Shown piece by piece: positions 18,762-37,092 of a DNA stretch of 37,442 nucleotides. The notes under the pieces are model-generated. The model did not search any database. It was not told the origin of the DNA and saw only the letters and a program-made list of their open reading frames with translations. Position 1 is the first letter of the stretch; every line of letters begins with the position of its first letter. Both the position numbers and the translations under genes were made by a program. The stretch spans positions 1-37,442 of the forward strand of contig NZ_JALJCL010000023.1 in NCBI RefSeq assembly GCF_023698535.1. The letters run 5' to 3'. The DNA is from Halorientalis regularis (GTDB lineage Archaea > Halobacteriota > Halobacteria > Halobacteriales > Haloarculaceae).

Positions 18762-19307
18762 TTACTCCGGGGTCGGCGCACGGACCGTGAGCGCGGCTTC
18801 GCAGGCACACGGTGTCCCGCACTTCGGGCAGGGACCGTCGGCGTGCCCGGCGATGGAGTCTGTGGAGACGACGTCGTACCCGTGTGTAGTCAGCAGGTCA
18901 GCCGGCGAGTCGGGGCCACCGTGGAACCACGCGTCGGCGACGAACACCCCGACCCCGTTCGTGTCGCCGATCTCGTGCAACCGTTCGAGTAGCCGGCTCC
19001 CGATTCCCGTCCCGGTGTGTGCCGGCGCCACGTAGCCCGCGTGGACGAGGCCGTAAGTCGATGCAGGCGGGACTCCCTCGACTGTGTCGACGAGGTGCAT
19101 CGCCTCGCGGACCCGCTCACGGCTGTCGTACGTGGTCAGCGCCATGACACCGACGGGCTCTCCCTCGCGCTCCGCGACACGAACGTAGGTCCCGGCGCGC
19201 TCGTCGTTCTCCGGAACCTCGTACGACCGTTCCTCGGCGAAGTGTGCGGTGATGAGTGTGAGGACCGCTTCCCGGTCCGCGTCGGTCAGTGGGCGCACCG
19301 TCGACAT
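18762..19307 (-). CDS. GNAT acetyltransferase with C-terminal Cys cluster
   Basis: A 181-residue protein. The GNAT fold opens MSTVRPLTDADREAVLTLI. The acetyl-CoA loop is VAPAHTGTGIGSRLL (about 93-107), matching the Q/RxxGxG/A pattern, followed by the helix LERLHEIG. An unusual tail carries GPCPKCGTPCACEAAL (about 158-173), a CxxC-x3-CxC set likely to bind zinc. The same Cys-rich tail occurs in some haloarchaeal GNATs, as I recall. Substrate unknown; by family it may acetylate a small molecule or a protein N-terminus. The frame stays open upstream to 19862 but ATG 19307 begins the domain. Downstream of the RNase Z-like gene, convergent with it. Confidence 0.9.
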   Translation of the reverse strand: MSTVRPLTDADREAVLTLITAHFAEERSYEVPENDERAGTYVRVAEREGEPVGVMALTTYDSRERVREAMHLVDTVEGVPPASTYGLVHAGYVAPAHTGTGIGSRLLERLHEIGDTNGVGVFVADAWFHGGPDSPADLLTTHGYDVVSTDSIAGHADGPCPKCGTPCACEAALTVRAPTPE

Positions 19308-28495: not shown

Positions 28496-28939
28496 CTACT
28501 CTTTCGGGTTCACCGGCCCGATGTACTCGTTTTTCCAGGAATCGCCCTCGCGCCACTGCCAGTAGTAGTAGCGATACTCGGTATCGGCCGTTTGCTTGGT
28601 CGTCTTGACCGTAATGTAGGCGCCGCTGCTTGGCACGTCTTCGTAGTCGCTCGGGTCCGTCGAGAGACCGCGCTCTTCCAGCTGTTCCCGCTCTTCCTCG
28701 TCGATCTCGTCGTCCGCCCGCCGTGTTTCCAACTCGGACTGGCGTTGGTGACGCTTCCACGCCGCGAGGTCGCTCGCGTACGTTGCTACCGCTTCCAGCC
28801 GGTCCGGCGATTGGTTCTCCAATGGGTCCAAGAGATAGCTCGGTAGGTTCGGCGGTGACGGTTTGGGCTGTGGGTTGTCCGCTATAGTTACCCCACACTC
28901 CGCTGATTGTTCAATTTGTGGGGTAACGGTTCGAACCAT
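28496..28939 (-). CDS. DUF6788-like haloarchaeal plasmid protein
   Basis: A 147-residue protein (150 if GTG 28948 is used). The C-terminal half carries AYITVKTTKQTADTEYRYYY followed by WQWREGDSWKNEYIGPVNP, a pattern I recall from a small family on haloarchaeal plasmids and proviruses (DUF6788-like). The middle is a charged helix (QSELETRRADDEIDEEEREQ), and the N-terminus is Pro-rich. Aromatic repeats in YRYYYWQWREG suggest a nucleic-acid- or protein-binding beta sheet, but the function is unknown. Its first codons overlap the inverted-repeat pair at 28887-28927 (the arms encode T-V-T-P and G-V-T-I segments). It points away from orc1 and its product may act in plasmid maintenance (inference). 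Confidence 0.82.
   Translation of the reverse strand: MVRTVTPQIEQSAECGVTIADNPQPKPSPPNLPSYLLDPLENQSPDRLEAVATYASDLAAWKRHQRQSELETRRADDEIDEEEREQLEERGLSTDPSDYEDVPSSGAYITVKTTKQTADTEYRYYYWQWREGDSWKNEYIGPVNPKE
28887..28927. repeat. Inverted-repeat pair, left copy flanking the origin
   Basis: GTTACCCCACA (28887-28897) and its reverse complement TGTGGGGTAAC (28917-28927) are separated by 19 bases. The same arms, 20 bases apart, recur at 31651-31692 on the other side of orc1. This copy lies within the 5' end of the gene at 28496-28939. Confidence 0.8.
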
Positions 28940-29000: not shown

Positions 29001-29020
29001 ACACATCGATAGAGGTGTGT
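29001..29020 (+). repeat. ORB-like repeat 1
   Basis: ACACATCGATAGAGGTGTGT. It is variant 2 (GGTGTGT end) and lies downstream of orc1, furthest left of the array. Orientation forward. Confidence 0.82.
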
Positions 29021-29164
29021 CTCGTCTCGTGGTTTTGCCGTCCGTCTGTCGATACTTGCGAGGTCAGTTCATCGTCGAAAGAGGTCTATTGACAAAGAAG
29101 TCACGCGTGGCTCTGATTGTCGAAGTCAAAAATACTCGACTTTGAGCCGTTATTTCTCGATATT

Positions 29165-29184
29165 ACACATCGATAGAGGGGTGT
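29165..29184 (+). repeat. ORB-like repeat 2
   Basis: ACACATCGATAGAGGGGTGT, forward. Same sequence as repeats at 29280 and 31451. It is the consensus form. Confidence 0.85.
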
Positions 29185-29279
29185 GAAGTCCTTCGTCGGC
29201 CGTAGTCATTCTATTGAGTCGTCGTTCGACGGATTGTTTCATTCGAATGAATTGTGGGAAATGACAGCACCCACGGTGG

Positions 29280-29299
29280 ACACATCGATAGAGGGGTGT
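29280..29299 (+). repeat. ORB-like repeat 3
   Basis: ACACATCGATAGAGGGGTGT, forward, 66 bases before the 3' end of orc1. The spaces between copies (144 and 95 bases) are irregular. Confidence 0.85.
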
Positions 29300-29365
29300 C
29301 TCTCGAGGAATCGGGGCCGCTGAAGATAGCGGTTGGATCTGGGTAGCGGATTGAAAACCGTGAAC

Positions 29366-30862
29366 TCAGGATTGGTTCCGGAGTTGTGCTTTAACCACCG
29401 TCTGGACTTCTTCTGGAGAGACCATGTCGATGCGGGAGTCCTCCCGAAGCGTATCGAGAATGGTATCAGGGCGTTCGGCAAACTGGAATTCGAGGAACAT
29501 CCCCGAACTGGGGCCATGGCTGCGGCGCTCGAAGTCAACCAGTGAGTAGGTCGTCAACTCTTTCATCTTGTTGACGTAGGTCTCCTGGTGGTACTGGTCA
29601 GTCCCGATCGCGTCTGTGAGAAATTGGTAGACTTGATAGCCGGTCGTACTGCGCGCGGTGCCGTTTTCGGTCTCGTTCGCGACAGTCGCGGTCGCGTACA
29701 GACAAAGCTTCTTCTGTGTGCTGATCCCGCGGATGACCTCGAGGACGCGGTTTTTCTCGACTTTTTCTTGTGCGTTCCGGACGTGTTCCTCACGGACTTC
29801 GGAATCGCCTTCGCGCTCGGCGAGTTCGCCAGCTACCCGCATGAGATCGATCGCCTTCCGTGCATCACCGTGGGTCTGTGCCGCAAACGCCGCAGCAAGC
29901 GGGATGACGTCGTCACTGAGGACATCGTCGTAGAACGCGTCTTGGCGGCGCCGGAGGATCGCCTTGAGCTGGTTCGCGTCGTAGTCGTCGAAGTGGACGT
30001 CTTCCGGAGTGAACGAACTCAGTGCCCGGCTCCCCACCGCCTCCATCATCTTCGTGTCGTTCGAAATCGCGACGACCGAGATGTGCGCGGAGAGGTCGTC
30101 GATAGCTCCAGACCGTGAGAGTTGATAGAGCAGCCGTGAGAACGCCGGGTCCTGTTTGTCCCGGCGACCCACGAGCATGTCCAGCTCGTCAAGCACGAAG
30201 ACCACGGAGTCGAAATTCTCGCTGACGATACGGTACAGTTCGTCCCACTTCTCTTTCGTCGCGACTCCGTGTTTGGGTACCTCGACGGAGACACCAGCTT
30301 CATCGGCGGCTCGCTCGGCCAGTTCGTAGACGGCGATGCCGAGGGTATCGAGGTCCTGGCAGTTCACTTCGACGGTCCCGAACCTGATATCGCGTTGCTC
30401 ACAGATGTTGCTGATGTTCTTACAGACCGCCTTCGTGATCAGGGATTTGCCCGTCCCCGACGGGCCGTAGAGAAAGAGATTCGGCGGTCGGTTGTCACCG
30501 AGCGCGACGCGCAACATCTTCGTAACTTCCTGGAGTTGGGTGTCCCGACCGACGATTCGATCCTCCTCGACGACGTAGTTCGGATCGAGCAAGGACCGGT
30601 CCCGGATCAGCCCTTCCTGTTCGTCGAACTCCAACAGCATTTCTTCGATTGACTCCGACTCGTTGTCGCTGGGGACTTGATCCGAATCCGATTCGGTTGG
30701 ATTCGCCGATTCCCCATTGATCGGTGGGGTCGATTGATCAGCCTCGTGGTCCCCATCCTCAATATCCGATGACCGATCGGACCGAACAGATGGTGACTGC
30801 TCTCCGGACTCCGAATCATCATCGATGGTCTCGGAGCCGTCAGTATCCATGTCAGCACACAT
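29366..30862 (-). CDS. orc1: Orc1/Cdc6 replication initiator
   Basis: A 498-residue (or 494 from ATG 30850) AAA+ initiator. An acidic, disordered N-terminus (about 1-90) precedes the ATPase: Walker A GPSGTGKS (133-140), Walker B VFVLDELDML (221-230), sensor 1 SNDT, and sensor 2 HGDARKAIDLMR. A winged-helix DNA-binding domain follows at about 390-498 (RVLEVIRGISTQKK ... YSLVDFERRSHG). In haloarchaea each Orc1 recognises its own repeats by the winged helix and loads MCM at the origin. The gene faces left and is surrounded by eight ORB-like repeats, one of which (30885-30904) sits directly in its own promoter, so autoregulation is likely. The long acidic N-terminus is often seen in plasmid-borne copies. 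Family call is certain; the cognate pairing with these repeats is inference. Confidence 0.97.
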   Translation of the reverse strand: MCADMDTDGSETIDDDSESGEQSPSVRSDRSSDIEDGDHEADQSTPPINGESANPTESDSDQVPSDNESESIEEMLLEFDEQEGLIRDRSLLDPNYVVEEDRIVGRDTQLQEVTKMLRVALGDNRPPNLFLYGPSGTGKSLITKAVCKNISNICEQRDIRFGTVEVNCQDLDTLGIAVYELAERAADEAGVSVEVPKHGVATKEKWDELYRIVSENFDSVVFVLDELDMLVGRRDKQDPAFSRLLYQLSRSGAIDDLSAHISVVAISNDTKMMEAVGSRALSSFTPEDVHFDDYDANQLKAILRRRQDAFYDDVLSDDVIPLAAAFAAQTHGDARKAIDLMRVAGELAEREGDSEVREEHVRNAQEKVEKNRVLEVIRGISTQKKLCLYATATVANETENGTARSTTGYQVYQFLTDAIGTDQYHQETYVNKMKELTTYSLVDFERRSHGPSSGMFLEFQFAERPDTILDTLREDSRIDMVSPEEVQTVVKAQLRNQS

Positions 30863-30884
30863 TCAGGCAATGATGAAAAGTGTT

Positions 30885-30904
30885 GCCCACCTCTATCGAA
30901 GTGT
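30885..30904 (-). repeat. ORB-like repeat 4, degenerate, in the orc1 promoter
   Basis: The reverse-strand sequence differs from variant 2 at three positions. It lies 23 bases upstream of the first ATG of orc1 (30862), overlapping the probable promoter. Confidence 0.65.
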
Positions 30905-31024
30905 GATTGCCCGATAGTGGAACTAGTACTCTCGAATTGAGCAGGTCTCTTCTCTTGATGCAAAACATCTCCTGAGGGGCCGACGAAGTGATCCACGGTG
31001 ATCAGGGAAGGACTCTGGACTCCC

Positions 31025-31044
31025 ACACCCCTCTATCGATGTGT
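31025..31044 (-). repeat. ORB-like repeat 5
   Basis: ACACCCCTCTATCGATGTGT on the forward strand, the exact reverse complement of the consensus. It marks the left border of the AT-rich zone. Confidence 0.87.
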
Positions 31045-31450
31045 TTGAGGGATCAAGAGGGTGGGGGGTGAGAGTGCAGTCGATAATCGGGATTGGACTC
31101 AAAGAACCGTCATTTAGAGACTGCTAAGTTATGGTTCTCGGCAATACAAGAATTCCGCAATAGAGTACTCCAGCGGATGAAGCGGTTATTCCTGCTGCTT
31201 TCTCCCATATCTTTCTATCTTCTTCTAGCTAGCTAGGAACTAGACACACACACCCCTTTATCGAAGTGTTCGATGTGTTCGACTCATAGTGATGATCAGC
31301 TGTAAGAGCGAGATCTATGAATGGCGAGTCCACGCTTCTTTCGTCGGTGTAGGATCTCTCGGTTGACTACCTCTTCCTGGCCTTCTCGTCGGTTCTTCTT
31401 TCGTAGTATCCATCGCGCGACCATTCAGCCCCACGCCCATTCCTTGTGGA
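31045..31450. other. Putative origin core with AT-rich unwinding zone
   Basis: This 406-base stretch between inverted ORB-like repeats 5 and 7 contains no gene. Its part from about 31100 to 31260 is rich in A and T with pyrimidine runs (TTTCTATCTTCTTCTAGCTA, 31212-31231). Repeats on either side point toward each other in the way seen in haloarchaeal origins. The short frames here (31545-31315, 31633-31367) are read through the repeats and are not genes. Confidence 0.75.
31250..31269 (-). repeat. ORB-like repeat 6, diverged
   Basis: Forward-strand sequence ACACCCCTTTATCGAAGTGT, with two mismatches to the reverse complement of the consensus. It lies inside the AT-rich zone. A half-site-like CGATGTGT follows at 31271-31278. 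Confidence 0.7.
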
Positions 31451-31470
31451 ACACATCGATAGAGGGGTGT
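31451..31470 (+). repeat. ORB-like repeat 7
   Basis: ACACATCGATAGAGGGGTGT, consensus form, forward, on the right border of the AT-rich zone. Confidence 0.87.
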
Positions 31471-31582
31471 CGGTGTATCCAACTTCTTCTCTAATCGACG
31501 ATCCACGATCGATACAATCCAGGAAGTCCTTGAGTTTCTCTCCAATTACCTCTCTCGAGCACTGCCGAGGCGCAGAAAGAAT

Positions 31583-31602
31583 ACACATCGATAGAGGTGT
31601 GT
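31583..31602 (+). repeat. ORB-like repeat 8
   Basis: ACACATCGATAGAGGTGTGT, variant 2 form, identical to repeat 1 at 29001. The first and last members of the array are thus the same variant. Confidence 0.85.
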
Positions 31603-31650: not shown

Positions 31651-31692
31651 GTTACCCCACATGTTCAGATATAGTCTGATCTGTGGGGTAAC
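31651..31692. repeat. Inverted-repeat pair, right copy flanking the origin
   Basis: GTTACCCCACA (31651-31661) and TGTGGGGTAAC (31682-31692) with 20 bases between. Same arms as 28887-28927. The spacer sequence is unrelated, so only the arms are conserved. It lies 125 bases before the ligase start and next to ORB-like repeat 8. Confidence 0.82.
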
Positions 31693-31816: not shown

Positions 31817-33499
31817 ATGGAATACGCCGAGTTCGCGACGGTCTGTGACCGGTTAGCAGCCACCGACGCGGATCTTGAGCAGGTCCAAATCCTAGCAGAC
31901 TGGCTGACCGAAACGGATTCGGACACGTTAACGCTGGTCGTTGGGATGGTTCGTGGGAAGGTATTCGAACCGTGGGAGACGGCCGAACTCGGTGTCTCAT
32001 CGAGCTTGACGGTGGAGGCCATCGACACAGCAACGGGAGTCGGGACTGATCAAATCGAAACGGTCTGGAGCGAGACTGGTGACCTCGGGGATGCCGCCGC
32101 CTGGGCAGTCGAACACGAGACACAGCAATCGTTGTTCAGTGAGCCGCTGACACTACAACGAGTCTACGAGACACTTCGAGATCTTGCCGACTTCACCGGC
32201 GAGGGGAGCCAGGACCGCAGGGTCAGTGAAGTCGCGGGGCTGATCGCCGACGCCAAGCCGGACGAAGCCAGATACGTGGTGCGCACGGCGCTGGGACATA
32301 TGCGACTTGGCGTCGGTGACGGCACGATGCGCGACGCCGTCGCGTCGGCATTCCTCGACGGGAGCGAGGCAGCCAGCGATGCGGTCGAACGCGCCCATCA
32401 GGTGACGAATGATTATGGCCTCGTCGCGACGACCGCTCGGGACGATGGTCGCGACGGCCTCGCCGATCTCGATGTCGAGTTGTTCAGGCCGGTTCAGATG
32501 ATGCTCGCGAAGAAGGCCGAGGGACTCACCGACGGTATCGATGATGTCGCCGAGGAGGCCGACGACGCACACATGGAGTACAAGTACGACGGGGCTCGCG
32601 TCCAGATTCACGTCGACGGCGACGAGATTCGCGTGTACACCCGCCGACTCGAAGACATCACGATGCAGTTCCCGGACGTGGTCGAGGCAGTCGCCGAGCA
32701 CGTCACGGCGGATCGGTGTCTCCTCGATGGCGAACTCGTCGGGTACGACCCGGAGACGGGTAATCCGATTCCATTCCAGGAGTTCTCGCGGCGCATCAAA
32801 CGCAAATACGACATCGCGGAGATGGTCGAACAGATACCGGTTACACTCTACCTGTTCGACATCCTCAGTCACGAGGATGACTCGCTGTTCGAGATATCGC
32901 TCCGAGATCGGCTCGCTCGACTCGACAGCGCGTTCGAGCCCAGTGAGGGTGTAATCGAACGCGCTGCCCACCGAGAATTCGACACGGAGGGGACAGCGAA
33001 CGATTTCTATCAGGAGGCGCTCACGGCCGGACACGAGGGAGTGATGCTGAAGAACCTCGCAGCGACGTACCAACCAGGCGAGCGGGTGGGCTACATGATG
33101 AAGGTGAAACCCGTAATGGAGCCACTCGATCTCGTCGTGACCCGGGCCCAGTGGAGCGAGGGGCGTCGGAGCGACTATCTCGGTCGGCTGTTCCTCGGCT
33201 GCCGGGATACTGATGGCGAGTTCATCGAAATCGGTCGTCTCTCGACCGGGTACACCGACGAGGAACTGGCCGCACTCACCGACGAACTGACGGACCTGAC
33301 CGTCTCAGAAGACGGTCGGATGGTCGACCTCCGACCCGAGGTCGTCCTGGAAGTCGAGTACGAAGAGATACAGCAGTCCCCCGAGTACGGCTCCGGGTAC
33401 GCTCTCCGATTCCCGCGATTTCTCGACGTGCGCGATGATCTTTCGCCGACAGATGTTGACTCGATCGAGCGCGTCGAGAGCCTGTATGAGGACCAGTAA
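31817..33499 (+). CDS. lig: ATP-dependent DNA ligase
   Basis: A 560-residue archaeal-type ligase of normal length with an N-terminal DNA-binding domain (about 1-220), adenylation domain and OB-fold. Nucleotidyltransferase motif I has Lys256 in MEYKYDGARVQIH, which takes the AMP; motif Ia-like RRLEDI, motif III DGELVGYD, motif IV EGVMLKN and motif V YMMKVKP are all visible. The enzyme joins nicks, such as those between Okazaki fragments. The start at ATG 31817 has an AT-rich AAATTAA about 27-33 bases upstream. It is followed, 66 bases later on the same strand, by the beta-CASP exonuclease gene; the two probably act together. The ORB array and an inverted-repeat pair lie just upstream. Base use is less GC-rich than the left part of the window. 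Confidence 0.97.
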   Translation: MEYAEFATVCDRLAATDADLEQVQILADWLTETDSDTLTLVVGMVRGKVFEPWETAELGVSSSLTVEAIDTATGVGTDQIETVWSETGDLGDAAAWAVEHETQQSLFSEPLTLQRVYETLRDLADFTGEGSQDRRVSEVAGLIADAKPDEARYVVRTALGHMRLGVGDGTMRDAVASAFLDGSEAASDAVERAHQVTNDYGLVATTARDDGRDGLADLDVELFRPVQMMLAKKAEGLTDGIDDVAEEADDAHMEYKYDGARVQIHVDGDEIRVYTRRLEDITMQFPDVVEAVAEHVTADRCLLDGELVGYDPETGNPIPFQEFSRRIKRKYDIAEMVEQIPVTLYLFDILSHEDDSLFEISLRDRLARLDSAFEPSEGVIERAAHREFDTEGTANDFYQEALTAGHEGVMLKNLAATYQPGERVGYMMKVKPVMEPLDLVVTRAQWSEGRRSDYLGRLFLGCRDTDGEFIEIGRLSTGYTDEELAALTDELTDLTVSEDGRMVDLRPEVVLEVEYEEIQQSPEYGSGYALRFPRFLDVRDDLSPTDVDSIERVESLYEDQ

Positions 33500-33565
33500 C
33501 TCTTTTCGCACTAACTTCTCAGGAAGGGCAGAATGGTTTTGCTGTCGCCACCCTAAGAGCTTGCA

Positions 33566-34561
33566 GTGACGACCGTTCGGCACACAGACGGTATCGAGGT
33601 TGAGCTGCCCGACGGCCGGGTCGTCCACGCCGATGCGTCACGGCCAGATGGCGACATCGCGGTCTGCAGCCACGCCCACGGCGACCACCTCTACTCGGAA
33701 GCCCCAGATTCGATGGTCTGTTCGGAATTAACGGCGGCACTCGCGGGCGTTCGTCGTGACGACGCAGCCACTCCGAGCACCCATCCTGATATCGAGTTAC
33801 TCGATGCGGGACACGTGCCCGGGTCCCGAGCGACGCTGATCACTTCCAAGGACACCGAACACGACGAGACCGTCCGCATACTATACACCGGTGACGTGTC
33901 AACGCGAGATCGTTTTTACCTCGACGGTTTCCAACCGGTCGACGCTGACATTCTCGTGGTCGAGGCGACCTACGGCACGCCGGAGTACGTCTTTCCGCCA
34001 CAGGCCGAACTCGAAGCCGAAATCGTCGACTGGTTCGAGGATACAGCCGACCAGCCGGTGATCTGTATGGGGTATACGTTGGGGCGAGCCCAGGAAATAC
34101 AGCGCCTTGCACAGCGGGCCGGAAGATCGCGACTGTTGGTCACTGATGCCATCGCGGAGATCAATTCTGTCGTCGAAGCTCATCTCGACGTTGATTTCGG
34201 GGCACAGCCGTACAACGCAGCAACTGATCTGTCGGCCGGCGATGTCCTCGTTTTGCCTGGGCAGACAAACTCCCTCTCGTTTGTCGACCAGTTGCGGGAA
34301 TCGAGCAACGCGATCAAGGCTGGGTTCTCGGGCTGGGCGATCGATAGCAGCTTCAAATTCAGGGGTGATTACGACGAAACGTTCGTCCTCTCCGATCACT
34401 GCGACCACGAAGAACTGCTCAACCTCGTTCGCGGTGTCGATCCCGAACAGGTCTACGTCCAGCACGGCGCCGTCGACGAGTTCGCGTCGTACCTCACCCG
34501 GGAAACTCCATATCGAGCCCAATCACTCCAGCAAAATCAGTCCACACTTGACGATTTTTGA
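33566..34561 (+). CDS. Ligase-associated metallo-beta-lactamase/beta-CASP exonuclease
   Basis: A 331-residue MBL-fold nuclease from GTG 33566. The zinc motif is SHAHGDHLY (about 35-43), and the later Asp/His set includes ILYTGDVSTRD (about 95-105), DAGHVPGSRA and VLSDHCDHEE near the C-terminus (the beta-CASP B/C region). The MGYTLGRAQEIQRLA segment is characteristic of the beta-CASP helix. In haloarchaea and bacteria homologues sit beside ligase genes and are thought to trim DNA or RNA ends before ligation. Substrate preference cannot be told here. No separate TATA box is obvious, so it may be co-transcribed with lig, 66 bases upstream. Confidence 0.9.
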   Translation: MTTVRHTDGIEVELPDGRVVHADASRPDGDIAVCSHAHGDHLYSEAPDSMVCSELTAALAGVRRDDAATPSTHPDIELLDAGHVPGSRATLITSKDTEHDETVRILYTGDVSTRDRFYLDGFQPVDADILVVEATYGTPEYVFPPQAELEAEIVDWFEDTADQPVICMGYTLGRAQEIQRLAQRAGRSRLLVTDAIAEINSVVEAHLDVDFGAQPYNAATDLSAGDVLVLPGQTNSLSFVDQLRESSNAIKAGFSGWAIDSSFKFRGDYDETFVLSDHCDHEELLNLVRGVDPEQVYVQHGAVDEFASYLTRETPYRAQSLQQNQSTLDDF

Positions 34562-35827: not shown

Positions 35828-36256
35828 TCAGTCCCAGCCATACCCCCACTCCTCGAGCTTTGCTTCGAGGAGATCGGGGTGTTCCTGAGCCACCTCGACG
35901 GCGGCTTCCATCACGTCCGTCCGATAGACGTTCTCGCCGAACCGATCCTCGAGTTCGCCGACCAGTTCCGGAATCCCGTCTTCGATTTCGTCCCGGAGGA
36001 AGATCGGCCGCTGTTGTCTGCCGTCTTTGACCGAATCTCGGGCGTAGATGTAGGGGAGACGGCTTGCCTCTGAACCGTTATCGTCGTCGGTGCCAGGGGC
36101 ACTCGACTCCTCCGCTGCGCCTCCGGTTGTGGCATCTTGTGACGATTCCGTCTCCGGGTCGTTTGTCGCAGATTCTCTTGACTCGGTGTCCGTGTCAGTG
36201 CCCGTTTCCGAGACGGTGTCTTCCGCGAACGGGTCGTCGGTTGAGCCTTGCTTCAT
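35828..36256 (-). CDS. ParA-partner protein (acidic adaptor)
   Basis: The 142-residue protein has a disordered acidic N-terminus (about 1-65, rich in Thr/Ser/Asp/Glu) and a folded C-terminal part, LPYIYARDSVKDGRQQRPIF, then DEIEDGIPELVGELEDRFGE and NVYRTDVMEAAVEVAQEHPD. Small acidic genes with this ending follow parA on many haloarchaeal plasmids, as I recall. The ATG (36254-36256) overlaps the parA stop region by four bases, so translation is coupled. It likely binds the centromere or acts as ParA's adaptor in place of ParB; no HTH or ParB motif is visible. Inferred from synteny, not demonstrated. Confidence 0.8.
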   Translation of the reverse strand: MKQGSTDDPFAEDTVSETGTDTDTESRESATNDPETESSQDATTGGAAEESSAPGTDDDNGSEASRLPYIYARDSVKDGRQQRPIFLRDEIEDGIPELVGELEDRFGENVYRTDVMEAAVEVAQEHPDLLEAKLEEWGYGWD

Positions 36257-37092
36257 GCTGGGACCTCCGTCTGGAGTCGGATGTGTTCGGCGAGGTCGTC
36301 GATCTTCTCCAGCGTTTCAACCTCGTGGTCTCGCTTGCGGTCACGATGCTCCTCGACGTAGCGGTAGGCTGTACATTGCTCTGCCCAGCAGCCTTCCAGC
36401 ATCGACGAGCGCTCGCGCAGCGTCACCGGGATGTCCCAGCCATCCTCCTGGAGTGTTTCCAGGAACCGATCCTGGTCGTTCATCCCCTTGTACCGGTTGG
36501 GAACGACTGCCAAGACGCCGACTTTGATATCGAGATTATCTTCAAGCCCGCCGACGAGCTGATCGAGTCCCTGCACTGACTCGTATCCCTTCCCCGAGGG
36601 CTCGAAGGGAATTACCACGTGTCTGGTAGCGTGTATCGCGTTATGCAGTTTAATATCGGCCGTCGCCGGCGGATCGACGATCAGCGTGTCGTATGTCTCG
36701 TGAACGCCCGCTTCTCTGAGTACTCGCAACAGCTGCTTGTTGGGGTTAAACGTCTCGCCGAAGTCCGCGGCCTCCTCCTCCCGACGACGTAGGTGCTTCG
36801 AGGCGTACTCGAGGATGTTGTGTGCCGGAACGATATCGATCCCCTCGCTCGTTCGGATCAGGTCCTCGACCGGTCCGCGCGGCCGATCAATCATATGTCG
36901 AAGCAGACTATCCGCTTCCGAGTCGTTCCGCTCGTCCGCGACGTCCAGGAGGTGTGAGAGAGATGCCTCCTGGGTGTCGAGATCGATGACGAGTACGTCA
37001 CGGCCGGCACGCACCTCCGCTTTCGCCAAGTTTGCGGCGAGTGTTGTTTTCCCCACACCGCCTGCCTCGCTGTATACCGTGTACGCCAACAT
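36253..37092 (-). CDS. parA: ParA/Soj-type partition ATPase
   Basis: A 279-residue deviant-Walker ATPase. The P-loop reads YSEAGGVGKTTLAANLA (residues 7-23), with GGVGKTT at 11-17 and Ala10 where the usual signature lysine (KGGVGKT) sits. The Walker A' region is VLVIDLDTQEASLSHLL (about 34-50), and YDTLIVDPPATADIKLHN gives Walker B (about 134-151). The change at the signature Lys is common in haloarchaeal ParAs as I recall. It may change dimer or sandwich formation. The protein should bind DNA non-specifically and move the replicon with its partner. ATG 37092 has TATA-like sequence at 37115-37122, and the palindromic repeats at 37136-37159 sit just upstream, suggesting autoregulation. Confidence 0.95.
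   Translation of the reverse strand: MLAYTVYSEAGGVGKTTLAANLAKAEVRAGRDVLVIDLDTQEASLSHLLDVADERNDSEADSLLRHMIDRPRGPVEDLIRTSEGIDIVPAHNILEYASKHLRRREEEAADFGETFNPNKQLLRVLREAGVHETYDTLIVDPPATADIKLHNAIHATRHVVIPFEPSGKGYESVQGLDQLVGGLEDNLDIKVGVLAVVPNRYKGMNDQDRFLETLQEDGWDIPVTLRERSSMLEGCWAEQCTAYRYVEEHRDRKRDHEVETLEKIDDLAEHIRLQTEVPA

Follow-up and report, generated by a model that had tools for sequence, protein, structure and literature searches.

A candidate plasmid-type replication origin in Halorientalis regularis with initiator repeats on both sides of orc1

The ORB cluster oriC2D of Haloarcula hispanica, 11 ORBs located behind cdc6E, has no ARS activity (PMC3936714). It lowers the efficiency of oriC2 and can be deleted only along with oriC2, while a construct with two downstream ORBs has an intermediate effect on the origin (PMC3936714). 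The authors of that study proposed initiator titration, which they expected to be widespread, and the same source describes datA and the DnaA boxes in the dnaA promoter of E. coli (PMC3936714). ORBs in both flanks of the initiator gene have been identified for Hlac_1078, Hlac_2747 and Hlac_2997 and for cdc6g, cdc6h and cdc6m of Haloarcula marismortui (PMC3528665). Of cdc6D origins it has been stated that their structure is conserved over short distances only (PMC4441112).

The repeat array and the candidate origin core

The window, that is, the whole 37,442-bp stretch analyzed here, includes an orc1 gene surrounded by eight 20-bp repeats, which were recovered by rescanning at the positions and on the strands given in a preliminary description of this DNA. 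The elements of the array are as follows.

31583..31602, + strand: ORB U1, outer upstream copy, ACACATCGATAGAGGTGTGT
31451..31470, + strand: ORB U2, half of the inner facing pair (scan and conservation)
31250..31269, − strand: ORB U3, partner of U2 in the inner facing pair, with a conserved additional half-site, AACACATCGA, before it
31100..31250, no strand: AT-rich segment, candidate duplex-unwinding region (57% AT vs 38% in the contig)
31025..31044, − strand: ORB U4 (scan and conservation)
30885..30904, − strand: promoter ORB U5, specialized form ACACTTCGATAGAGGTGGG(C/G) (own consensus, fixed geometry)
29366..30862, − strand: orc1/cdc6 initiator gene, 498-codon ORF (PF22703 2.9e-25, PF09079 5e-15, TIGR02928 7e-128)
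29280..29299, + strand: downstream ORB D1 (scan and relatives)
29165..29184, + strand: downstream ORB D2 (scan and relatives)
29001..29020, + strand: downstream ORB D3, same sequence as U1 (scan and relatives)

Along the locus, U1 and U2 are on one strand and U3, U4 and U5 on the other, followed by orc1 and then by D1-D3, which share the strand of U1 and U2. A scan of the window with ACACWTCGATARAGGNGTGT, allowing up to three mismatches, produced eight matches against 0.03 expected by chance from dinucleotide shuffles, which rules out a chance origin of the repeats. The eight close copies are confined to a single contig, C15, of the genome (4.03 Mb, 45 contigs), and no further close copy was found elsewhere in it, the six other matches being background hits with two mismatches, about as frequent as in the reversed control. 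A genome-wide or transposon-borne repeat was ruled out by this restriction to one contig. The outermost copies, U1 and D3, are identical as originally noted, but the two variants described at first turned out to be four distinct 20-mers: one ending in GGTGTGT (two copies), one of the form ACACATCG..GGGGTGT (four copies), the copy at 31250 (ACACTTCGATAAAGGGGTGT) and the copy at 30885 (ACACTTCGATAGAGGTGGGC), which is of a special promoter-proximal type.

The orc1 ORF is intact, its product matches profiles for the lid and winged-helix domains, and it is the sole Orc gene on its contig. Including orc1, six loci in the genome match the Orc lid model, and four of the five others could be aligned to Orc1, at just 29-32% identity. 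The earlier impression that the motif is unlike other ORBs held within this genome, where the repeated words beside the other Orc genes differ from the motif of the array. One of these genes, on contig C10 (L241:7526-7957), has five upstream copies of TCCCAAGTTATA, a different ORB family.

Reverse and forward copies do face each other upstream of orc1, with 31250(−) and 31451(+) as the inner inverted pair. However, the AT-rich zone had been placed at 31045-31450, an interval that contains the copy at 31250; an AT-rich stretch is indeed present, and it occupies 31100-31250. The lowest GC content in the window, 42%, is found at 31200-31299, and in 52 loci the most AT-rich 100 bp start on average at U3. 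The locus thus combines the features of haloarchaeal origins linked to orc1/cdc6: an adjacent intact orc1/cdc6 gene, inverted ORBs upstream of it with an AT-rich stretch inside the upstream set, and an ORB sequence linked to the Orc family, as seen in the clade I motif and the co-changed clade II motif described below. The cumulative GC and AT skews of the contig and of the complete plasmids PL131 and pHSR-Bgl01 were weak and without a clear origin signal; many extremes were examined, among them a weak GC skew maximum of PL131 at 95,302, inside the array, and a weak AT skew maximum of pHSR-Bgl01 at 18,859, inside orc1. The second ORB type described for Hla_3512, TAACAGCGGAAACAGTGGGG, was absent here and around the related orc1 on pHLAC01. 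The features of this segment make it very probable that it is a plasmid-type replication origin run by its own Orc1.

Conservation of the layout and proposed roles of the copies

Relatives of Orc1 were collected from genome contigs (79 loci) and from plasmid records. Clade I was counted as the 53 loci with an Orc1 at least 72% identical and more than 600 bp of downstream sequence. At least three upstream copies are present in 50 of these loci and at least one downstream copy in 49. The preliminary description had called copies past the 3′ end of the gene less usual; such copies are the norm in this Orc1 family. Their orientation is nearly uniform, with 172 of 175 downstream copies in one direction and three on the other strand, and they are often spaced about 40-42 and 102-107 bp apart. 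Upstream, 48 of 52 sites homologous to U2 have no mismatch to the consensus, and the median distance between the starts of U2 and U3 is 199 bp. Four clade I loci (L094, L095, L097, L099) have no downstream copies, and insertions between the gene and the downstream cluster are tolerated in L067 and L088 (about 1.3-1.5 kb), and partly in L090. The layout is shared across several haloarchaeal families. The complete plasmids PL131, pHLAC01, pHOS300 and pHSR-Bgl01 carry the same array and most of the named close relatives are plasmids, with a few on chromosomes or large scaffolds (L099, L128). Array and layout were therefore kept together with orc1 in about 50 relatives, where an absence of the repeats had been named as the outcome that would speak against the proposal, and the identification as an ORB-type array of an orc1-linked origin is supported by the Orc1/Cdc6 gene and by this conservation.

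A sister clade, clade II, includes 25 loci with Orc1 proteins 63-69% identical and the repeat consensus AACAAATCGATAGAGGTGTGT. Upstream these loci have a facing set, and downstream there are usually three copies, although these counts lean towards the pattern because the loci themselves supplied the matrix used for scoring. The orientation of the downstream trio is opposite to that in clade I (L100-L122, L125, L127). Upstream and downstream copies changed jointly to AACAAATCGATAGAGGTGTGT, and therefore a single Orc1 probably reads all copies in both clusters.

The copy nearest to the gene, U5, belongs to a type with a separate consensus, ACACtTCGATAGaGGTGGGg, and 35 of its 36 copies have two or three mismatches to the consensus of the array. 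The possibility that U5 is a decayed ORB was rejected, since its type is separately conserved. A conserved T-rich box is located a few bases after U5 (30876-30879 in the window), and an in-frame ATG is conserved 33-35 nt past the end of the promoter ORB in 37 loci. Leaderless transcripts are common in haloarchaea. The geometry here matches the distance from a TATA box to the start codon of a leaderless transcript, and therefore orc1 most likely starts with the ATG at 30850 rather than that at 30862, the first ATG of the ORF. With this start codon and the geometry of U5 and the T-rich box, Orc1 bound at U5 would lie next to the core promoter or cover it, and U5 is probably a site of autoregulation of orc1.

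Taken together, we infer the following mechanism. Orc1 would bind the upstream ORBs, and the facing pair 31250/31451 with the AT-rich segment 31100-31250 would be the initiation site where the DNA is opened and MCM is loaded. At U5, directly upstream of the T-rich promoter box, Orc1 would repress its own gene. The three one-way copies downstream, which include no facing pair, would not constitute an origin; they would bind Orc1 and reduce the free amount available at the origin. As in oriC2D, several ORBs (three, 29001-29299) are located directly downstream of the initiator gene. Here their motif is that of the origin ORBs, and in clade II the downstream and origin copies changed together. Because of the oriC2D precedent and the ORBs found in both flanks in the earlier survey, we consider it likely that the downstream trio is an initiator-titration cluster. 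The complete arrangement, a plasmid-type origin with an autoregulatory promoter ORB and a downstream titration cluster, is to us a reasonably probable description of the locus.

Other roles of the downstream copies were considered. Orc1 bound to them could act positively, looping across orc1 to aid origin opening or transcription coupling. The single orientation in each clade (172:3 in clade I) and the spacings of about 40-42 and 102-107 bp, which could favor cooperative binding, are consistent with looping. However, the orientation is reversed in the sister clade, insertions of about 1.3-1.5 kb are tolerated, four relatives do without the cluster, and the only tested precedent had a negative effect (PMC3936714), so a positive role appears unlikely. 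Titration, for its part, is compatible with the flip in clade II but leaves the orientation fixed within each clade unexplained. A second, weak or former origin at the downstream copies is highly improbable: the copies are intact ORBs within an intergenic stretch of 49% AT, but nearly all relatives are missing a facing pair there and oriC2D alone showed no ARS activity (PMC3936714).

A different question is whether the whole array could be the relic of an origin that is inactive or dormant in this genome. In haloarchaea, orc genes and predicted origins outnumber the active origins (PMC3936714), and this genome has the six loci that match the Orc lid model. Nonetheless, orc1 is intact and the only Orc gene on its contig, and all conserved sites were retained, including the promoter copy and its spacing, which makes a relic quite improbable. 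The reading that we favor is still that of an origin run by Orc1, with titration by the downstream copies.

Palindromes and an ORFan gene at the flanks

The origin module is bracketed by two palindromes, the only ones of the form GTTACCCCACA-N19/20-TGTGGGGTAAC in the genome. These and the neighboring genes are listed below.

36253..37092, − strand: ParA-type partition ATPase (profile match)
35828-36256: small partner ORF of ParA
31817..33499, + strand: ATP-dependent DNA ligase, downstream of the second palindrome (profile match)
31651..31692, no strand: palindrome GTTACCCCACA-N20-TGTGGGGTAAC, just outside U1 and 124 nt upstream of the DNA ligase gene (motif search)
28887..28927, no strand: palindrome GTTACCCCACA-N19-TGTGGGGTAAC, just outside D3, an operator-like site immediately ahead of the ORFan start (motif search)
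28496..28885, − strand: ORFan gene, about 129 aa, plasmid-borne family (protein search; palindrome upstream)

The protein encoded after the ligase has a below-cut-off match to a ligase-associated exonuclease, and the second palindrome heads this pair (31817-34561). One palindrome on each side was also found in two Halorientalis loci (L052, L053) and one Haloplanus locus (L065). Palindromes of the TTACCCCAC type, to which those in the window belong, are carried by 46 of 392 Halobacteriales genomes, up to 12 in each, and by none in the reversed control. Their arms are exact while their spacers are unrelated, on which ground a transposon end or inserted unit was rejected. A function as parts of the origin was not favored either: other plasmids have such palindromes at sites far from the origin, and the origin layout stands without the TTACCCCAC type in most relatives.

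The ORFan of the window has an ATA at 28883-28885 where its relatives have an ATG, and an in-frame ATG is located at 28939, beyond the palindrome. Searches of Pfam and NCBIfam gave no match and that of PHROG no significant one; the sequence found nothing in the PDB, and the AlphaFold model (mean pLDDT 78, a long helix and a three-stranded sheet) had no significant match among PDB structures. A search by protein added many members to the family, which is matched in 90 plasmid records of haloarchaea and is often encoded close to orc1: the gene adjoins orc1 on pCBA1112-01, pCBA1113-01, Salinigranum unnamed3 and pHSR-Bgl01, and is within about 1.5 kb of it on pCBA1113-02 and pNRC200. One copy of the palindrome stops 0-3 bp ahead of the start codon of family members. 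An inverted repeat is located upstream of 51 of 55 distinct members, an association that is partly built in for the TTACCCCAC type, many members of which were fetched via the palindrome itself, but not for the second type. In a more distant subfamily the repeat is TTAACCAACA-N-TGTTGGTTAA, in most cases 14-16 bp ahead of the start, while CCTAACCCACA occurs in a single intermediate member.

The two types of palindrome are distributed by plasmid. Five plasmids have 7, 5, 7, 3 and 1 palindromes of the TTACCCCAC type versus 2, 0, 0, 1 and 0 of the other, while five other plasmids have 3, 6, 8, 7 and 6 of the TTAACCAAC type and none of the TTACCCCAC type. This second type, TTAACCAAC-N-GTTGGTTAA, occurs 3 to 8 times per plasmid on PL131, pHLAC01, pNRC200, pHSR-Bgl01 and pHOS300. 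It was also seen on L131 and L234 and on contigs C3, C10, C13 and C20 of the H. regularis genome, C10 being the contig with the Orc gene preceded by TCCCAAGTTATA. A comparison by eye with the annotation placed the palindromes between genes. Often the next start codon follows within about 170 nt (genes for the ORFan, PolB, TRAM, vWA and TFB), and some palindromes are between converging genes. The openly licensed literature was searched for the palindrome arms and for palindromes of haloarchaeal plasmids, with no relevant result.

On the simplest reading of these arrangements, the ORFan may be a DNA-binding protein that controls its own gene and has operators throughout the plasmid; the chief alternative for the ORFan-palindrome system is partition. 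More specifically, the chances appear balanced that this is an undescribed, replicon-specific control in which the ORFan putatively binds palindromes over its own promoter and others dispersed between genes, with GTTACCCCAC or TTAACCAACA arms according to subfamily, each plasmid being marked mainly by its own type. Such a protein could be a plasmid-wide regulator or take part in origin-coupled partition or copy control.

Comparison with described origins

What was reported as an oddity, initiator sites behind the initiator gene, is a conserved rule in one large family of haloarchaeal plasmid-type origins. The two clades, with about 75 sequenced examples and with downstream sites that vary naturally in number, spacing and orientation, make archaeal initiator titration and autoregulation testable by comparison and by simple plasmid assays. 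These loci are also candidate minimal replicons for vectors, and the ORFan-palindrome system may be a new layer of haloarchaeal plasmid control.

As in oriC2-cdc6E-oriC2D, an origin upstream of the initiator gene is combined with a further ORB cluster directly downstream. The H. hispanica system has Cdc6E and 11 downstream ORBs on the main chromosome, whereas the window has three, on a plasmid-like contig; the function of oriC2D is backed by genetic evidence and that of the trio is predicted from sequence. Titration of the initiator and an initiator site in its own promoter would parallel datA and the dnaA promoter of E. coli, but the initiator and sites there are unrelated and the likeness is one of analogy only. 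Unlike the cdc6D origins (PMC4441112), the Orc1 family described here retains its layout in several haloarchaeal families. The orc/cdc6 origins surveyed before (PMC3528665) likewise include ORBs on both sides of the gene and an ORB sequence tied to the Orc family, but in that survey downstream ORBs were occasional and origin structure was diverse even within families, whereas here the layout stays the same from one haloarchaeal family to another. Natronomonas pharaonis PL131, Halorubrum lacusprofundi pHLAC01, Halapricum pHSR-Bgl01 and Halorientalis pHOS300 differ from the window in having four downstream copies instead of three, with other spacing, and palindromes of the TTAACCAAC rather than the TTACCCCAC type, but they share with it the same array around an Orc1 of 78-86% identity.
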